From contig JAJEJC010000006.1 in assembly GCA_022828105.1 (NCBI GenBank), positions 62,001 to 126,000 on the forward strand: 64,000 bases of DNA. The letters run 5' to 3'. The notes beneath the pieces were generated by a model. The model was not told the origin of the DNA. It made no database searches and saw nothing but the letters and a program-made list of their open reading frames with translations. Below, in pieces: positions 16,790 to 50,907 of this stretch (position 1 is the stretch's first letter; every line of letters starts with the position of its first letter). The DNA comes from Dehalococcoidia bacterium. GTDB lineage: Bacteria > Chloroflexota > Dehalococcoidia > Bin125. Made by a program: the position numbers and the translations under genes.

Positions 16790-18082
16790 ATGCCCGGACC
16801 GCTCGACGGGATCAAGGTGCTGGAGTTGGCGCAGATCATCGCCGGACCATTCTGCGGCACGGCGCTTGCCGACCTGGGCGCGGACGTCGTCAAGCTCGAG
16901 TCGCCCCAGGGCGACGCCTCACGCCGCATCGGTCAGTTCGCTCCGGGCGAGAGCAAGGCCTTCCACGGCCTCAACCGCGGCAAGCGGGGGATCGTGCTCG
17001 ACCTCAGCTCATCGCCCGGACAGTCCGTCGCGCATCGCCTGATTCCACAGTTCGATGTCTTCGTCACCAACGTCCGTCCCGGCGTGGCGGAGCGCATTGC
17101 GATGGACTACGACACGCTCGCCCGCTTGCGGCCCGATCTGATTTACCTGGAAGTGACCGGCTACGGCACGCGCGGACCGAGCGCGCAGCGGGCCGGCTCC
17201 GATGTCGTCGTGCAGGCGTATTCGGGCCTGCTCGCCGGCGACATGAAAGTCGATCGGCGTGGCGCGCCGGAGCCGATCACGGCATCCGCGCCGTCCGACT
17301 ACGTCGCCGCGCTGGGCGGCGCGATGGGTGTCTGTGCGGCGCTGTTTCATCGCCAGCGCACGGGCGAGGGTCAGCGCATTGCCACCACACTGCTGGGCGC
17401 GGGGCTCGCGCTGCAGGCCCCCTGGGCCGGCGACGTGCCGGTCTCGGACGCGATCCTGATCGAGCCGCTGCGCCGGATGATGTCGGAGATGCGCGAGGCG
17501 GGCGCGAGCTATGCCGAGCTGATCGACGCCCGCCGTAGCCGCCCGAACCAGGGCAGGGCATTCCGCATCTACTACGCCGGCTATCCGGTCAAGGACGGCG
17601 CGATCATCCTCGGCGCGCTCACGCCACAGAATCGCGACCAGATCCGCCGCGCCCTGGGCATCGTCGACGATCCCACCGACGACGACGACTTCAACGCCAT
17701 CGGTCCGGACGCCGACGCCATCGTGTCGCGGATTGAAGAACAGATTCGCTCCGCGCTGGCCGGCGGCACCATCGAGGAGTGGATGGCGAAACTCGATGCC
17801 GTCGGCGCTCCCGCCTCGCCCGTCAACTGGCTCGAAGACATGGCCGACGATCCGCAAGTCGTGGCGATGGACATGATGCCCACGATCGAGCATCCCCTCA
17901 CCGGTCCCGAGCGCCAGGTCGGCCCATTGGTCCAGATGTCGAAAAGCACCACCGGCTCGGACCGCTCGTCGCCGCCCCTTGACGCAGACACCGACGCCGT
18001 CCTCCGGAAGCACGGCTTCACCGACGACGAAATCGGCAGTTTGCGCGCCGCAGGCGTTGTCGGAGCCGACGCAAGCGGCTAG
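16790..18082 (+). CDS. CaiB/BaiF family III CoA-transferase, tandem copy 1
   Basis: 430 residues. The N-terminal GIKVLELAQIIAGPFCG, LGADVVKLESPQGD and NRGKRGIVLDL are class III CoA-transferase signatures. SDYVAALGGAMGVCAALFHR puts the catalytic aspartate at residue 170, equivalent in position to Asp169 of formyl-CoA transferase. The enzyme moves CoA between carboxylic acids through an aspartyl-CoA intermediate. GAGGAG precedes the ATG. First of three consecutive paralogues in one direction (gaps 44 and 18 bases); it is the most diverged of the three, for example LLAGDMKVDRRGAPEP where the other two share LM(A/V)GD. Confidence 0.92.
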   Translation: MPGPLDGIKVLELAQIIAGPFCGTALADLGADVVKLESPQGDASRRIGQFAPGESKAFHGLNRGKRGIVLDLSSSPGQSVAHRLIPQFDVFVTNVRPGVAERIAMDYDTLARLRPDLIYLEVTGYGTRGPSAQRAGSDVVVQAYSGLLAGDMKVDRRGAPEPITASAPSDYVAALGGAMGVCAALFHRQRTGEGQRIATTLLGAGLALQAPWAGDVPVSDAILIEPLRRMMSEMREAGASYAELIDARRSRPNQGRAFRIYYAGYPVKDGAIILGALTPQNRDQIRRALGIVDDPTDDDDFNAIGPDADAIVSRIEEQIRSALAGGTIEEWMAKLDAVGAPASPVNWLEDMADDPQVVAMDMMPTIEHPLTGPERQVGPLVQMSKSTTGSDRSSPPLDADTDAVLRKHGFTDDEIGSLRAAGVVGADASG

Positions 18083-18126
18083 TTGCCTATCCTCACTCAA
18101 ACTCGCTTTACAGCAAGGAGACTCCG

Positions 18127-19428
18127 ATGCCTGGTGCGCTCGATGGAATCAAGGTGCTTGAGGTGACGCAGATCATCGCCGGGCCGATGTGCGGAGTGAT
18201 GCTCTCCGACATGGGCGCGGACGTGATCAAGATTGAGTCGGCCGCCGGCGACGGGATGCGGCTGCTCGGCCAGTTCGCGCCGCACGAGAGCAAGGGCTAC
18301 CACGTCTTCAATCGCGGTAAGCGGGGCATGGTCCTCAACCTGCAGCATCCCGACGGACAGGCCGTGGTCCATCGAATGATACCCGAGATGGACGTGTTTC
18401 TGATCAACGCGCGGCCAGGCGTGCCGCAGCGGTTGGGCATCGACTACGACAGCCTGCGTTCACTCAATCCGTCGCTGATCTACCTGGAGAACACCGCCTA
18501 CGGACCGAGCGGGCCGTCGGCGCACCGTGCCGGCGCAGACATCATCGCCCAGGCCTACTCGGGACTGATGGCCGGCGACGAGAAAGTCGACGAACACGGC
18601 GGACCCGACCTGATCACGGCGACTACGCCGGCCGACTTCGCCGCCGCCATGACCAGCTCGATCGCAGTCTGCGCGGCGCTCTTCCACCGCGAGCGGACAG
18701 GCGAGGGCCAGAAGATCGACACCTCGCTGCTGGCCGGGGCGATGATGCTGCAGAACGCCTTCGCCTCGCGCTTGCCGGTCTCCGACGCGATCATGCTGCA
18801 ACCGGTCCTGGACGGCCTCGCGGCCGTGCGCGAGCGCGGCGGCTCCTATCGCGAGATGCTGGCCGCCAAGGGCGGCATCCGCGCGCTCGTCGGCGGCGCG
18901 TTCCTCCTCTACTACGGCGGCTACCAGACCTCCGACGGCGCGATCATGCTGGGTTGCGTCACACCCTCGAATCGCAACCAGGTCCGTAACGCGCTTGGAC
19001 TTGGACCCGACGACGATCCCACCGATAGCGGCGACTTCAACGCGATGGCCGAGGACTCCGCTGAGATCGTGGCCAGGGTGCGCGCGCTGATCAGTGAGCG
19101 CTTCGCCGCCGACACAACCGAGAACTGGGTCGCGAAGCTCGATCAGGCCGGCGCGCCCGCCGCACAGGTCAACATGCCCGAGGAGATGGTCGACGATCCG
19201 CAGGTGCGGGCGCTCGGCATCATGGTCGACCTGGAGCATCCAATCACCGGTCCCGAGACGATGGTCGGTCCGCCCTTCGACATGTCGGCCACGCCGACCG
19301 CTGCGCGCGGATCCTCGCCGCCGCTCGACGGAGACACCGACGAGGTGCTGGCCCAGTACGGCTACAGCGCAGAAGGGATTGCGTCGCTACGGGCGTCGGG
19401 CGCGGCGGGACTGCCCGCTCAGAGCTAA
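18127..19428 (+). CDS. CaiB/BaiF family III CoA-transferase, tandem copy 2
   Basis: 433 residues, colinear with copies 1 and 3. GIKVLEVTQIIAGPMCGVML, GADVIKIESAAGDG and FNRGKRGMVLNLQ are shared blocks; the catalytic aspartate is Asp170 in TTPADFAAAM. The C-terminal domain GAFLLYYGGYQTSDGAIMLG is nearly identical in copy 3. AAGGAG precedes the ATG. The gene follows copy 1 by 44 bases and is followed by copy 3 after 18 bases, so all three are probably one transcript. Whether the copies form heteromers or have split substrate ranges is not shown by sequence. Confidence 0.92.
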   Translation: MPGALDGIKVLEVTQIIAGPMCGVMLSDMGADVIKIESAAGDGMRLLGQFAPHESKGYHVFNRGKRGMVLNLQHPDGQAVVHRMIPEMDVFLINARPGVPQRLGIDYDSLRSLNPSLIYLENTAYGPSGPSAHRAGADIIAQAYSGLMAGDEKVDEHGGPDLITATTPADFAAAMTSSIAVCAALFHRERTGEGQKIDTSLLAGAMMLQNAFASRLPVSDAIMLQPVLDGLAAVRERGGSYREMLAAKGGIRALVGGAFLLYYGGYQTSDGAIMLGCVTPSNRNQVRNALGLGPDDDPTDSGDFNAMAEDSAEIVARVRALISERFAADTTENWVAKLDQAGAPAAQVNMPEEMVDDPQVRALGIMVDLEHPITGPETMVGPPFDMSATPTAARGSSPPLDGDTDEVLAQYGYSAEGIASLRASGAAGLPAQS

Positions 19429-19446
19429 GAACCCCAGGAGCCTGCG

Positions 19447-20745
19447 ATGCCCGGACCGCTCGACGGGATTCGAGTCCTCGAACTGACCCAGATCATCGCC
19501 GGACCGATGTGCGGGGTGATGCTCTCCGACTTCGGCGCCGACGTGGTCAAGATCGAGTCGCCCCTGGGCGATGGCATACGCGTGATCGGGCAGTTCGCGC
19601 CGAATGAGTCGAAGGGTTACCACGTCTTCAACCGAGGCAAGCGCGGCATCGTGCTGAACTTGCAGACTTCGGAGGGACGTTCGGTGATTCACCGCCTGAT
19701 CCGCGACTTCGATGTCTTCTTGATCAACGCCCGACCCGGTGTGGCCGAACGGTTGGGCATCGACTACGAAACGCTGAGCGCCCACAACCAACGCTTGATC
19801 TACCTCGACAACACCGCCTTCGGCCCTGAAGGTCCCTCAGCCGGCCGCGCCGGCGCCGACATCATCGCGCAGGCCTACTCCGGACTCATGGTCGGCGACG
19901 GCAAGGTGGACGCGCAGGGCAACCCCACGTTGATCACCGCCACCACACCCGCCGACTTCGGCGCAGCCTTCACCGGAGCTGCCGCCGTCTGCGCTGCGCT
20001 GTTTCATCGCGAGCGCAGCGGTCGCGGCCAGCTCATCGAAACCTCGCTGCTCGGCGCGGCCTTGACCATGCAGACCTCCATCGCCTCGCGCCAGCCGGTC
20101 AGCGATGCGATCCTCGTACAGCCCTCCCGGGACGCGATGTATGACGTGCGCGCACGCGGAGGTTCGTATCGCGAGTTGATCGAGGCACGCAGCGGAATAC
20201 GCTCGCTCACCGGCTCCGCATATCTGCTCTACTACGGCGGCTATCAGACCGCCGACGGCGCAATCATGTTGGGCTGCGTCACACCGACGAATCGACAGCA
20301 GGTTCGCAACGCCATCGGACTGACCAATGCCGATGATGCGACCGACGCGCCGGGATTCAATCCGCTCGATCCGGGCGCTGCGTCGGTGGTGGAACATGCC
20401 CAGCGCAACATCGCCGATCGATTCCGCAGCAACACGACTGAGCACTGGTTGAACAGGCTCGACGCCGCCGGCGCGCCGGCCTCGCAGGTCAACACGCCGG
20501 AGGACATCCTCGACGACCCGCAAGTACAAGCCATCGGCGCTCCTCTGCAGCTGGATCATCCGCTGACCGGTCCGGAGACACTGATCGGCCCCACGATCCG
20601 GATGTCCGACTCGCCCGTCGAGGCGCAAGGTCCGTCACCCGTACTTGACGCCGACACGGACGATGTTCTGCGCGAACACGGCTACGACGATGACGAGATC
20701 GCCGCGCTGCGCGCATCGGGCGCCGTCGGGATCGGCAGCGCGTAG
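19447..20745 (+). CDS. CaiB/BaiF family III CoA-transferase, tandem copy 3
   Basis: 432 residues. It begins GIRVLELTQIIAGPMCGVML with GADVVKIESPLGDG and retains Asp170 in TTPADFGAAF, so it should be catalytically competent. Blocks FLINARPGV, RLGIDY, AGADIIAQAYSGLM and LLYYGGYQT are shared with copy 2, indicating a recent duplication relative to copy 1. CAGGAG precedes the ATG. The downstream cytochrome gene is convergent, which marks the end of the three-gene unit. Confidence 0.92.
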   Translation: MPGPLDGIRVLELTQIIAGPMCGVMLSDFGADVVKIESPLGDGIRVIGQFAPNESKGYHVFNRGKRGIVLNLQTSEGRSVIHRLIRDFDVFLINARPGVAERLGIDYETLSAHNQRLIYLDNTAFGPEGPSAGRAGADIIAQAYSGLMVGDGKVDAQGNPTLITATTPADFGAAFTGAAAVCAALFHRERSGRGQLIETSLLGAALTMQTSIASRQPVSDAILVQPSRDAMYDVRARGGSYRELIEARSGIRSLTGSAYLLYYGGYQTADGAIMLGCVTPTNRQQVRNAIGLTNADDATDAPGFNPLDPGAASVVEHAQRNIADRFRSNTTEHWLNRLDAAGAPASQVNTPEDILDDPQVQAIGAPLQLDHPLTGPETLIGPTIRMSDSPVEAQGPSPVLDADTDDVLREHGYDDDEIAALRASGAVGIGSA

Positions 20746-21354: not shown

Positions 21355-22527
21355 ATGGTCTCTCCAACCAGCGCCGCGCAGAATCTGGGCACGGAAACCG
21401 CGTTCGAGGTCCTGGCCAGGGCGAATCGACTCGCCGCCGAGGGACGTTCGATCATCAACCTTGGCATCGGACAGCCCGACTTCGCCACGCCTGGCAACAT
21501 CGTCCAGGCCGGCGAGCAGGCGCTCGCTGACGGCAAGCACGGCTACACGCCGGCCGCCGGCATTCCCGAGCTGCGAGAAGCGGTCGCCCGCGACCTGCAG
21601 CGTCGGCACGGCGCAGAGGTCGATCCCGATTCGGTCCTGATCACGCCCGGCGCCAAGCCGGTCATGTTCTTTGCAGCGCTGCTGATGGGCGAGCCAGGCG
21701 CGGAAATCATGTACCCCAACCCGGGTTTCCCGATCTACGAGTCCGTGATCCGCTTTTCCGGCGCGACGCCGGTGCCGATCGAGCTGCACGAGGCCGACGG
21801 CTTCACCTTTGATCCTGACCAGGTGCTGAGCCAGATCAACGAACGCACGCGGCTGATCATCCTCAACAGTCCCGCCAATCCGACCGGCGGCGTCTACTCC
21901 CGCGAACAGATCGAGCGATTGGTCGAGGGACTGGAGCAATGGCCGGATATCGTCATCCTCAGCGATGAGATCTACTCCCGCATCCTTTACGAAGGCCTGG
22001 AGCACACCTCCTGGCTCAACTACCCGCAGCTCCGTGACCGACTGATTGTGCTCGACGGCTGGAGCAAGACCTACGCAATGACCGGCTGGCGGCTGGGCTT
22101 CGGCGTCTTCCCGCCCGACCTCTTCCCTTTCGCAGAGCGTCTCGCGATCAACAGCTATTCCTGTCCCAACGCCGCGACCCAGTACGCCGCCGTCGAGGCG
22201 CTGGACGGCCCGCAGGAGGCGGTCGAAATCATGACTTCCGCCTTCGACGAACGACGGCGGGTGATCGTCCGCGAACTCAACGATGTGCCGGGCGTCAGTT
22301 GCGTCAACCCGCTCGGCGCGTTTTACGCCTTCCCCAACATCTCCGCAACCGGCATCGACGCGCGCACCATGCAGGAGCGCCTGCTGGATGAGGCCGGGCT
22401 GGCCGTGATCGCCGGGACCAGCTTCGGACATCTCGGCGAGGGCTACCTGCGCTTCAGCTACGCCGCCTCGTTGGAGGAGATCGTCGAGGGCGTCGACCGA
22501 ATGCGTACCCTGTTGGCCAACAGCTAA
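21355..22527 (+). CDS. Pyridoxal-phosphate aminotransferase (aspartate aminotransferase-like)
   Basis: 390 residues of fold type I, class I/II aminotransferases. NLGIGQPDFATP near residue 34 and YTPAAGIPELREAVA near 64 are typical of the AspC/AAT subgroup Ib. NSPANPTGGVY near 172 contains the Asn that contacts the PLP oxygen; SDEIY follows. LDGWSKTYAMTGWRLGF carries the Schiff-base lysine at about 238, and FSYAAS near 367 supplies the carboxylate-binding arginine region. It likely transfers amino groups from an aromatic, branched-chain or acidic amino acid to 2-oxoglutarate. GGAG occurs before the ATG. It is divergent from the cytochrome gene. Confidence 0.9.
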   Translation: MVSPTSAAQNLGTETAFEVLARANRLAAEGRSIINLGIGQPDFATPGNIVQAGEQALADGKHGYTPAAGIPELREAVARDLQRRHGAEVDPDSVLITPGAKPVMFFAALLMGEPGAEIMYPNPGFPIYESVIRFSGATPVPIELHEADGFTFDPDQVLSQINERTRLIILNSPANPTGGVYSREQIERLVEGLEQWPDIVILSDEIYSRILYEGLEHTSWLNYPQLRDRLIVLDGWSKTYAMTGWRLGFGVFPPDLFPFAERLAINSYSCPNAATQYAAVEALDGPQEAVEIMTSAFDERRRVIVRELNDVPGVSCVNPLGAFYAFPNISATGIDARTMQERLLDEAGLAVIAGTSFGHLGEGYLRFSYAASLEEIVEGVDRMRTLLANS

Positions 22528-22540
22528 CCCAACCAAGTCG

Positions 22541-22575
22541 TCCCCGCGCAAGCGGGGACCCCCGCATAGGCGGGG
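22541..22575. repeat. Intergenic double hairpin, family 2, copy b
   Basis: TCCCCGC-GCAA-GCGGGGA (22541-22558) is followed at once by CCCCGC-ATAG-GCGGGG (22560-22575). It is preceded by AAGTCG, like the hairpin at 9181-9198. It lies between the aminotransferase stop and the OsmC-family start. No poly-T tract follows. Confidence 0.6.
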
Positions 22576-22600
22576 ACCGCTCGCTGCAATGGAGGAGCAG

Positions 22601-23071
22601 ATGCCCCGCTTCGAGTACATCTCACGCAACAAGCTCGAACTCAAGGACGGCTTCCGCCACGCGACCCTCGGCGATGTGCCCGAGCCGGTCGTCTACGGCG
22701 TGCAGGGCAAGCTCAAGGAGCACTACGGCGTGCCCGCGGACGCCCCGCCGATGACCGCAACCCTCGACCACATCGTCGCCGCGGTCGGCGGTTGAATGTA
22801 TGGCACCCTCGCGCGGGCGTTGTCCGTGCGCAAGGTCGAGTTCGACCCCAACACCTACAAGGCCGATGTCCTGGGCACGATCGAGGGCGAAGACAACCAG
22901 ACCATCCGGATCACGAAGATCCACGTGGTCTTCCACATCCCGGGCATCGCCGACGATCAGCGCGCTGCCGCCGAACGCGCCGTCAAGTTCCACGCGCCTG
23001 GCTGTCCCGCCCATGAGAGCGTCAAGGACGCGATCGAGATCACCTGGGAAGCCGACTACGGAGACAACTAG
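22601..23071 (+). CDS. OsmC-family peroxidase-like protein with in-frame UGA (candidate selenoprotein)
   Basis: Read through TGA at 22793-22795, the frame gives 156 residues, a normal OsmC-family length. The two halves match one OsmC protein: TATLDHIVAAVGG, then the UGA as residue 65, then MYGTLARAL, and VKFHAPGCPAHES with Cys135. In known OsmC/Ohr proteins the first cysteine sits exactly after this AA-GG block (as in GGC) and the second in a xxCP motif; UGA replaces the first. Nothing else disrupts the frame. The ATG at 22601 has GGAGGAG just upstream and is preferred over the ATG at 22589. Expected role: thiol/selenol reduction of organic peroxides. Alternatives are a nonsense mutation or sequencing error of TGC/TGT. 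No selenocysteine machinery is in the window. Confidence 0.7.
22796..22831 (+). promoter_or_regulatory. Candidate bacterial SECIS-like hairpin after the UGA
   Basis: GCGC at 22811-22814 can pair with GCGC at 22828-22831, and GG at 22815-22816 with CC at 22824-22825. A two-base bulge separates the pairs and the apical loop GCGTTGT carries unpaired G residues. The loop lies roughly 21-27 bases after the UGA, within the range known for bacterial SECIS elements. The stem is short and was folded by eye, so support is weak. Confidence 0.3.
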
Positions 23072-48123: not shown

Positions 48124-50907
48124 ATGACGACCGGGACGGCTGCGGAGACCCTCACGGTCACCGTCGACGGTGAGTCGGTGGAGACAAGCTCCGGCGCGTC
48201 GATCCTCGACGCCGTTCTGGCCGCCGGCGTCGATCTACCCCACCTCTGCAAGGACCTCGATGGTCCCGCCCTGGGCGCCTGTCGCACCTGCCTGGTCGAG
48301 ATCGACGGGCAGCGCGGGCTGCCCGCCGCCTGCCATACTCCGGCAGCCGACGGACAGGTCGTGCGCACCGACTCCGAGGCCGCGCGTTCGGCCCGCAAGG
48401 GCATCCTCGAACTCACGCTTGCAATGACCGACAGCGCCGCGCATTCGAATGGCGCCGGGGAGAACGAACTGCGTCACCACGCGCGGACGCACGAGGCGAA
48501 GGCCGGCCGCTGGAACGGCCGAGTCAATGGTCACGAGGACGAGTCGAATCACTTCTACAAGTTCAATGCGACTGACTGCATTCTTTGTGGACGCTGCGTC
48601 TCGGCCTGTTCCGATCGCCAACACATCGGCGCGATCGGCATCGCCGGCGCGGGCAAGGCGGCGCGAATCGCGTCTTTTGGCGACGAGCCGCTGGGGGAGT
48701 CGACCTGCACCTCCTGCGGTTCCTGCGTGGCGGCCTGTCCAACCGAAGCATTGACGCCCAAGCGGGGCGCCTCGGGCGCGAAGACGGTCTCGACCGTCTG
48801 TCCATACTGCGGCGTCGGTTGCGGAATCAAGATCACCTCCGAGAACGGCGTCCTCACGCACGTCGACGACGATCCGGAGAATCGCTCATCGCAGGGCCTG
48901 CTCTGCGTCAAGGGACGCTTCGGTACGGCGTTCGTCAATCATCCCGACCGCTTGACGACGCCGCTGATACGCGGGCCTGAGGGTCTGCGCCCGGCCTCCT
49001 GGGATGAGGCGCTCGATCTGGTCGCCGAGAAGTTCGCCGAACATCGCGGCGCGTTCGGCGCGTTCTCCTCGGCCAAGGCGACGAACGAGGACAACTACAT
49101 GCTGCAGAAGTTCGTGCGCGCCGTGATGGGCACGAACAACATCGATCACTGCACGCGGCTCTGCCACTCGCCCTCGGTCGAGGCCATGCTGGCCCAACTC
49201 GGCTCCGGCGCGACCTCGAACAGCTACAGCGACTACGAGGCGTCCGACTGCCTCTTCGTCGTCGGCGCGGATCCGTCCTCCAACCACCCGGTCGCGGCCT
49301 CCAGAATGCGCAGCGCCGTGGACCGCGGCGCTGCCTTGATCGTGCTCAATCCGAAGCGGATCGAACTCTGCGATCACACCGATCTCTGGCTGCAGCAGTA
49401 TCCGGGTACCGACGTCGCGGTGCTCAACGGCATGGCCAGGGTGATCCTCGACGAAGGTCTGGCCGACACCGACTTCATCGAGACGAGGACCGAGGGCTAC
49501 GAGGACTGGCTGGCCGAGCTCGACGAGTACACGCCCGAGGCGGTTGAGCGGATTTCTGGCGTGCAGGCCGACCTCCTGATCCGCGCCGCGCGCACCTATG
49601 CGCGGCCGAATCCTGTTGGAGACGATCCGGGCGGATCGTGCCTGATCTGGGGGATGGGCGTCACCCAGCACACGAACGGCACGGCCAATGCGACGGCGCT
49701 GCTCAATCTCGCTCTGCTCACAGGCCAGGTCGGGCGGATCGGCAACGGGGTTTCGCCGCTGCGCGGCCAGAACAACGTGCAGGGCGCGGGCGACGCCGGC
49801 TGCGTGCCCGACGCATTGCCCGGCTATCAGCGCTACACGCCCGAAGTGCTGGACAAGTTCAACCGCGTCTGGGCCTCGGACCTACCCGCCGCCGAGGGGC
49901 TGCGGGCGACCGATATGGTCGAGAGCATGCTCTCCGACGACGGCGTCGCGTGCATGTACATCGTGGGTGAGAACCCCTTGCTGACCGAGCCGAACCTGGC
50001 GCATGCGCACGAGGCGATCGAGAAGCTCGACTTTCTCGTGGTCCAGGACATCTTCATGCACGAGACGGCGGAGCTGGCCGATGTGGTGTTGCCGGCGGCC
50101 TCGTTTGCCGAAAAGGAAGGCACCTTTACCAACTCGGAACGCAGGGTGCAGCGGGTGCGACAGGTGATTCCGCCGGTCGGCCAATCCCGAGCCGACTGGG
50201 AGATCGTCCAGGATGTCGCGCGCCGCACTGCGCAGCGGCTCGGACAGTCGGCGCTCGGCTTCGAGCATGGCTCCGCCGCGTCGGTCTTCGACGAGCTCGC
50301 CGCACTGACGCCGATTATGGCCGGACTCTCGCACCGCCGCCTGAACGAGCAGGGCGGCATTCAGTGGCCATGTCCCAGCGAAGATCATCCAGGCACGCCA
50401 CGGCTCTACGACGAGTCGTTCCCTCGGGGACTGGGCAAGTTCATCCCGGTCCGCCAGTTGCCGCCTTCGGAGGAGGCGCCCGACGACCGCTACCCGCTGA
50501 TCCTCAACACTGGCCGCGTCCTCTATCACTGGCACGGCGGCACGATCACTCGCCGCGTGGACGGCCTGGTCGATTCATGGCCCGAGTTGCGTGTCGCGAT
50601 CCACCCGAACGACGCGGCGCGGATGGAGATCGTCGACGATGAGGCGGTCTGGGTCGCCTCGCGCCGCGGTCGGCTGGAAGGCGTGAGTTTTGTGACTGAT
50701 GATGTCGCCGAGGGGTCGATCTTTGTGCCGTTTGTCCGGCTGGCCGACTCGGCGGCCAATTGGCTGACCAACAACGCATACGACGAGGTCGCGCGCATCC
50801 CCGAATACAAGGTCTGCGCCGTCGCCGTCGAGCGAGCGGCCGAGCCGAGTGAATGGCGTCACAGCGGCGCCGGAGGCAAGAAGGGCAAGCGTCGCCAGTT
50901 CTGGTAG
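48124..50907 (+). CDS. fdhA: Formate dehydrogenase alpha subunit (molybdo/tungsto-pterin, Cys type)
   Basis: 927 residues. A [2Fe-2S] domain (Cys42, 53, 56, 70) leads into a His-rich linker and two [4Fe-4S] ferredoxin clusters (Cys152/155/158/162 and 195/198/201/205). The molybdopterin domain starts with another cluster (CPYCGVGC and Cys261) and has DHCTRLCHSP, with the metal-binding Cys347 where other formate dehydrogenases carry selenocysteine. The C-terminal dinucleotide-binding domain includes HWHGGTITRR. This is the cytoplasmic NAD-linked type; its usual flavin and ferredoxin partner subunits and FdhD are absent from the window. Confidence 0.92.
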   Translation: MTTGTAAETLTVTVDGESVETSSGASILDAVLAAGVDLPHLCKDLDGPALGACRTCLVEIDGQRGLPAACHTPAADGQVVRTDSEAARSARKGILELTLAMTDSAAHSNGAGENELRHHARTHEAKAGRWNGRVNGHEDESNHFYKFNATDCILCGRCVSACSDRQHIGAIGIAGAGKAARIASFGDEPLGESTCTSCGSCVAACPTEALTPKRGASGAKTVSTVCPYCGVGCGIKITSENGVLTHVDDDPENRSSQGLLCVKGRFGTAFVNHPDRLTTPLIRGPEGLRPASWDEALDLVAEKFAEHRGAFGAFSSAKATNEDNYMLQKFVRAVMGTNNIDHCTRLCHSPSVEAMLAQLGSGATSNSYSDYEASDCLFVVGADPSSNHPVAASRMRSAVDRGAALIVLNPKRIELCDHTDLWLQQYPGTDVAVLNGMARVILDEGLADTDFIETRTEGYEDWLAELDEYTPEAVERISGVQADLLIRAARTYARPNPVGDDPGGSCLIWGMGVTQHTNGTANATALLNLALLTGQVGRIGNGVSPLRGQNNVQGAGDAGCVPDALPGYQRYTPEVLDKFNRVWASDLPAAEGLRATDMVESMLSDDGVACMYIVGENPLLTEPNLAHAHEAIEKLDFLVVQDIFMHETAELADVVLPAASFAEKEGTFTNSERRVQRVRQVIPPVGQSRADWEIVQDVARRTAQRLGQSALGFEHGSAASVFDELAALTPIMAGLSHRRLNEQGGIQWPCPSEDHPGTPRLYDESFPRGLGKFIPVRQLPPSEEAPDDRYPLILNTGRVLYHWHGGTITRRVDGLVDSWPELRVAIHPNDAARMEIVDDEAVWVASRRGRLEGVSFVTDDVAEGSIFVPFVRLADSAANWLTNNAYDEVARIPEYKVCAVAVERAAEPSEWRHSGAGGKKGKRRQFW

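Follow-up and report, generated by a model that had tools for sequence, protein, structure and literature searches.

We analyzed a stretch of 64,000 nucleotides from the genome of a Dehalococcoidia bacterium (hereafter, the window). On its forward strand, at 22601–23071, lies a gene of the OsmC family whose reading frame contains an in-frame TGA. We propose that this TGA encodes selenocysteine (Sec). The features of the gene are as follows, where L, G, and C numbers are our handles for loci, genomes, and contigs.

22591–22597, forward strand: Shine-Dalgarno-like sequence GGAGGAG, with the ATG at 22601 just downstream (from reading the sequence).
22601–23071, forward strand: gene for a predicted Sec-containing OsmC-family protein, 156 codons including the UGA, with the stop codon TAG at 23069–23071 (from the frame, Pfam, cross-phylum conservation, and substitution rates).
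22793–22795, forward strand: in-frame TGA, predicted to be Sec, at residue 65, the first catalytic (peroxidatic) position (from alignment; L046 and L134 have Cys in the same column).
22810–22830, forward strand: hairpin like a bacterial selenocysteine insertion sequence (bSECIS), with a 9-bp stem (22810–22818 and 22822–22830) and a 3-nucleotide loop, GUU (22819–22821), 23 nucleotides after the UGA (from RNAfold and family comparison).
23003–23005, forward strand: codon (TGT) for Cys135, which is in a GCP motif and is the second of the conserved redox residues (from the sequence and a 30-row alignment).

The translation reads MPRFEY...AAVGG-UGA-MYGTLARAL...GCPAHES...YGDN, and the one TGA is its sole interruption. 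A preliminary description of this locus had reported two abutting frames that are split only by the TGA at 22793–22795 and that join into 156 residues, with the UGA at residue 65 after AAVGG and with Cys135 in GCPAH; on re-reading, all of these were exact. It had also given the spacing of the two redox cysteines in this family as about 66 residues, but in the window's protein, Sec65 and Cys135 are separated by 70 positions. The joined frame matches Pfam's OsmC family (PF02566) with 37.8 bits, as compared to a cut-off of 27.5, and the match (residues 56–150) spans the TGA.

The TGA is conserved at residue 65 in all 14 close relatives. In a sample of 400 genomes from across Chloroflexota, homologues (E ≤ 1e-5) were found in 36, of which 34 contain the in-frame TGA. 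A scan of GTDB representatives found 421 stretches that encode relatives. We used a script to read the best 80 of these; in 78 of them, from at least seven phyla, the TGA is found at this same position. The hosts include Chloroflexota, Rokubacteria, Bacillota (Planococcus, Planomicrobium, and Bacillus sp. EB01), Actinomycetota (Rubrobacter and Acidimicrobiia), Acidobacteria, Armatimonadetes, and KSB1, and some of the TGA-bearing hosts are isolates (of Planococcus, Bacillus, Rubrobacter, and Ktedonobacteria). L134, from Bryobacterales, has Cys at the Sec position, and L105 is outside the tally of TGA codons because no in-frame reading of it was obtained. In an alignment of 30 sequences (A1, with Sec written as C; all 30 match PF02566 at E ≤ 0.001), residue 65, Cys135, and Pro136 are invariant, Gly is found at +3 after Sec in 30/30, and Thr is found at +4 in nearly all.

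The part of the gene after the TGA is under selection as well. Compared to the 14 nearest relatives, the ratio of nonsynonymous to synonymous substitution rates (dN/dS) is 0.10 on the 5' side of the TGA and 0.08 on the 3' side. Low values on both sides imply that the region 3' of the TGA is selected as protein. The expectations of the preliminary description held up here: the UGA falls on the first redox position, where it aligns with Cys of OsmC homologues (L046 and L134), and the UGA is kept near and far, with no decay elsewhere in the gene. The gene is almost certainly intact, even if it looks broken.

Another homologue, L173 (G303:C49:15600–16400), has TGG (Trp) at the Sec position, and its match is limited to residues 29–153. 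We did not count it among the Cys forms because it reads TGG and was matched only from residue 29. It is possibly a decayed copy, in a genome (G303) that has SelA. The family's distribution is patchy: within the sample of 400 genomes, the genomes of the same class that have the gene are all from the window's own genus, and Dehalococcoidia loci outside of that sample (L104 and L122) carry it as well. In Ktedonobacteria bacterium brp13 (AP024096.1), we also noticed two Sec-osmC genes, L094 and L096, that are nearly identical and lie about 21 kb from each other. A search of a plasmid collection gave no match.

The hairpin just downstream of the UGA is conserved across the family. In the published model of bSECIS elements, the loop is 3–9 nucleotides, the stem is 4–16 base pairs, G is in the first two positions of the loop, and the distance from the UGA is 16–37 nucleotides (PMC13188914). 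The stem, the G-first loop, and the distance of the window's hairpin are all within these limits. Its position is fixed family-wide, with the center of the loop 28 nucleotides after the UGA in most clades and 25 in the window's genus. In the window's group (n = 13), 7.92 of 8 pairs form on average, versus 5.29 ± 0.28 in synonymous recodings; in 81 other sequences, it is 6.86 versus 4.87 ± 0.13. (The spread of this null is too narrow, as the sequences are related, but the difference is large nonetheless.) The first base of the loop is G in 12/13 sequences from the window's group and in 72/81 of the others. Furthermore, in 32 diverse sequences, one pair of the stem varies as G-C, C-G, and A-U, which are compensatory changes. 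In the same set, the covariation score and the number of paired cells were above all 500 shuffles, and 85% of cells were paired in the true register versus 23–58% in slid registers.

The host has the machinery to make and insert Sec. Its genome (2.74 Mb in 10 contigs, 97% complete) encodes a tRNA-Sec with anticodon TCA (C7:157195–157288, 70.3 bits), SelB (C9:431161–433014, 349.9 bits), SelA (C4:26935–28263, 525.7 bits), and SelD (C4:303510–304451, which is L056 1441–2500; 353.5 bits). So, the four genes that the preliminary description had named as a check (selA, selB, selC, and selD) are all present. The selD gene has its own in-frame TGA, at LARCGGUGSK, which we take to be the catalytic Cys/Sec site of SelD. 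SelD of this host is probably a Sec protein itself, and Sec use in the host is probably not confined to a single gene. The window's OsmC would be like Sec-containing SelD, and other bacterial selenoproteins that are decoded by SelABCD, in that SelB decodes the UGA with the help of a hairpin that lies within the coding sequence; the protein family is different. More broadly, SelA was over the cut-off in 39 of the 41 tested genomes with the TGA form and not in the genome from Bryobacterales, which has the Cys form. In a control set of 14 well-known genomes, SelA exceeded the cut-off in E. coli alone.

The predicted structure is that of an OsmC/Ohr protein. An AlphaFold2 model from A1 (predicted local distance difference test, 94.0; predicted template modeling score, 0.85) places residue 65 on a helix (54–76) and Cys135 next to a helix that begins at 136. 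With Foldseek and VIA-align, the top matches were all OsmC/Ohr structures (Z = 14.8 for 2onf and Z = 12–14 for Ohr and E. coli OsmC). When the PDB was searched by sequence with the alignment of 30 rows, there were no matches at E ≤ 0.01, and the relationship is visible by fold comparison only. In Ohr and OsmC, the first Cys attacks the peroxide and the second Cys resolves it. Lipoyl reductants are known for Ohr, and the known structures include Ohr with dihydrolipoamide (6ebg and 6ebd). The window's protein is like these hydroperoxide reductases (PF02566) in its fold (Z = 11–14.8), in its size, and in the placement of both redox residues, but the first redox residue is Cys in those enzymes and would be Sec here, and the sequence identity to the matched structures is just 8–16%.

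By analogy, we lean towards the protein being an OsmC/Ohr-type peroxidase. We also considered that Sec might be inserted into another kind of OsmC-fold redox protein, such as the YhfA kind, that acts on a sulfur compound or on a metabolite of the neighboring genes. This is possible, and we give it some weight; it is a question about the substrate and is compatible with the insertion of Sec. The low identity to solved Ohr and OsmC structures fits with it, as does structure 1ml8 (presumably E. coli YhfA), which scores equal to Ohr. Also, the window's protein scores far below the cut-offs of the curated OsmC and SACOL1771 models, and no curated OsmC subfamily model reaches its own. On the other hand, both the fold and the two redox residues are of the OsmC/Ohr peroxidase type, and in two of the 80 loci, both from Chloroflexota (L074 3489–3860 and L075 3514–3897), the next gene after Sec-osmC, 24–58 bp on, encodes a lipoyl protein similar to glycine cleavage protein H. 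A lipoyl-domain gene at this place agrees with the lipoyl reductants of Ohr. We speculate, with considerable doubt, that the electron donor of the putative peroxidase is a lipoylated protein.

The conservation of the TGA (in 34/36 Chloroflexota homologues and 78/80 loci), the sel genes, the selection on both sides, the hairpin, and the fold lead us to conclude that this is a selenoprotein. We infer, with high confidence, that Sec is inserted at UGA 22793 in the cell, and with nearly as much confidence that the product is a redox protein with the OsmC fold. We propose that, when the hairpin just 3' of this UGA is in place, SelB delivers Sec-tRNA-Sec to the ribosome, and the UGA is decoded as Sec65 to give the full chain of 156 residues. 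Sec65 would take the place of the first (peroxidatic) Cys of OsmC/Ohr, and Cys135 would be the second. By analogy, the enzyme would reduce organic hydroperoxides or related oxidants. The oxidized Sec would form a selenylsulfide with Cys135, which would be re-reduced by a dithiol, possibly that of a lipoylated protein.

Several observations weigh against this proposal. First, two genomes with the TGA form (G095 and G405, which are drafts) lack SelA over the cut-off. Second, SelA is frequent in the phylum regardless, in 321 of 400 Chloroflexota genomes. Given this background, the presence of SelA is a necessary condition and is consistent with our proposal, but it is not proof. Third, the stability of the window's hairpin is unremarkable for its base composition (z = −0.61), and the alignment of the window's genus is too uniform to judge covariation within the hairpin. 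Fourth, the neighbors of osmC are not conserved beyond the genus. Finally, a predicted OsmC/Ohr fold does not, by itself, establish the function or the substrate.

We considered three explanations without Sec. The first frame might stop at the TGA, with a second polypeptide re-initiated at the directly adjoining ATG (TGAATG). In the window's clade, an ATG (at 22796) does lie immediately 3' of the TGA, which is the usual layout for re-initiation. But in many other clades, the codon after the TGA is CTG, CTC, CTT, or CTA, which led us to reject this explanation. Furthermore, such a split would divide the central helix (54–76) in two, and the first redox residue, a Cys in both L046 and L134, would be lost. 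Re-initiation seems very improbable. Alternatively, the gene might be a recent pseudogene, or a TGC or TGT codon might have been misread as TGA, since TGA is one base away from a Cys codon. We rejected this as well: all 14 close relatives, 34 of the 36 Chloroflexota homologues, and 78 of the 80 loci, from independent assemblies, share the position of the TGA, and dN/dS of about 0.1 on both sides of the TGA indicates purifying selection beyond it. We see next to no chance of this. Similarly, a genome-wide reassignment of UGA, such as to Trp or Cys, would open the frame likewise, but it is exceedingly unlikely and was rejected, since TGA is a normal stop codon in the window (it terminates 10 of the 35 clear long open reading frames), the Sec system is complete, and the only other in-gene TGA that we saw is in selD (we did not survey selenoproteins genome-wide).

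If the window's OsmC is a selenoprotein, to which family does it belong? Three sequences of OsmC-like selenoproteins with the motif UxxT were described from the Sargasso Sea and five from Global Ocean Sampling, and these proteins were restated in reviews from 2022 and 2026 (PMC1088965, PMC2398784, PMC9312934, PMC13188914). The NCBIfam model NF041052 (OsmC_like_Se) appears to represent these UxxT proteins, as the motif matches: its members in Chloroflexota read GFULLTQ or similar. Members over the cut-off are found in 27 of the 400 Chloroflexota genomes (the loci include L139–L158), with TGA in 26 of the 27. The cut-off of this model is 95 bits; the window's protein reaches just 18.8, and none of seven diverse relatives exceeds 28.6. 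We rejected membership in NF041052 given these scores, the missing UxxT motif, and the separate clade. The two families share the OsmC fold, the UGA at the first redox position, and their occurrence in Chloroflexota, but UxxT proteins have GFULLTQ and a second site of AERxC, while the window's family has GGU(M/L)xGT and GCP.

A phylogeny of 70 sequences separates the two families (UxxG and UxxT) by branches that have 100/100 support, and ordinary Cys-containing OsmC proteins group with UxxT. (Some outgroup rows have long branches, and the root is not fixed.) The Cys-containing members of the UxxG family (L046 and L134) do not group together, and L046 is nested inside a Sec clade, which suggests that it lost Sec. 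Three genomes (G036, G071, and G317) have both families, and G293 has the Sec form of UxxG along with a Cys-containing UxxT copy (L144). The preliminary description had mentioned Sec-containing OsmC proteins from marine metagenomes and suggested that the family might be known. Such proteins are indeed in the literature, as UxxT, but they are a different family from the window's UxxGT clade. In the mostly open-access literature, we found no pairing of OsmC with selenoproteins beyond UxxT; an earlier description elsewhere is possible. The window's family is a second, Sec-dominated family of Sec-OsmC proteins, and it is absent from the selenoprotein catalogs that were accessible to our search. 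On balance, we favor a broader interpretation: that UxxGT...GCP is a widespread family of OsmC-fold peroxidases, in at least seven phyla, in which Sec is the rule and Cys is a rare derived exception, and that this family, which is distinct from UxxT, was missed because catalogs of Sec/Cys pairs lean on Cys homologues.

Genes of this family are prone to be annotated as two fragments, as a truncated protein, or as a pseudogene, possibly in hundreds of species (given 421 stretches, of which 80 were read). Hosts that look to be cultured, namely Planococcus halotolerans, Planomicrobium okeanokoites, Rubrobacter taiwanensis, and Bacillus sp. EB01, offer bench access to the use of Sec in an OsmC-type peroxidase. 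The direction from Sec to Cys could be studied in those few Cys forms that are nested.

The gene next to osmC in the window is:

21355–22527, forward strand: class I/II aminotransferase, directly upstream of osmC, in the same orientation, and a conserved neighbor within the genus (14/14 close relatives).

We considered that this aminotransferase might be a functional partner of the OsmC protein, and rejected the idea because it is a constant neighbor within the genus only. A similarity search of other clades did not find an aminotransferase of the same kind next to osmC. Aminotransferases of other subfamilies are found near osmC in Planococcus and KSB1. In four species of Planococcus and Planomicrobium (L111, L116, L117, and L131), Sec-osmC always has a class V aminotransferase on one side and a glycerate kinase on the other. 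In the window, the gap between the aminotransferase and osmC contains a palindromic element, GTCCCCGCGCAAGCGGGGACCCCCGCATAGGCGGGGACC (22540–22578), of which the window has no second exact copy. The formate-dehydrogenase-like gene that the preliminary description had noted nearby is at 48124–50907 and is, as was stated, of the Cys type, with the motif CTRLCH. Finally, three tandem paralogues at 16790–20745 resemble CaiB/BaiF-type CoA-transferases, as recognized by eye.
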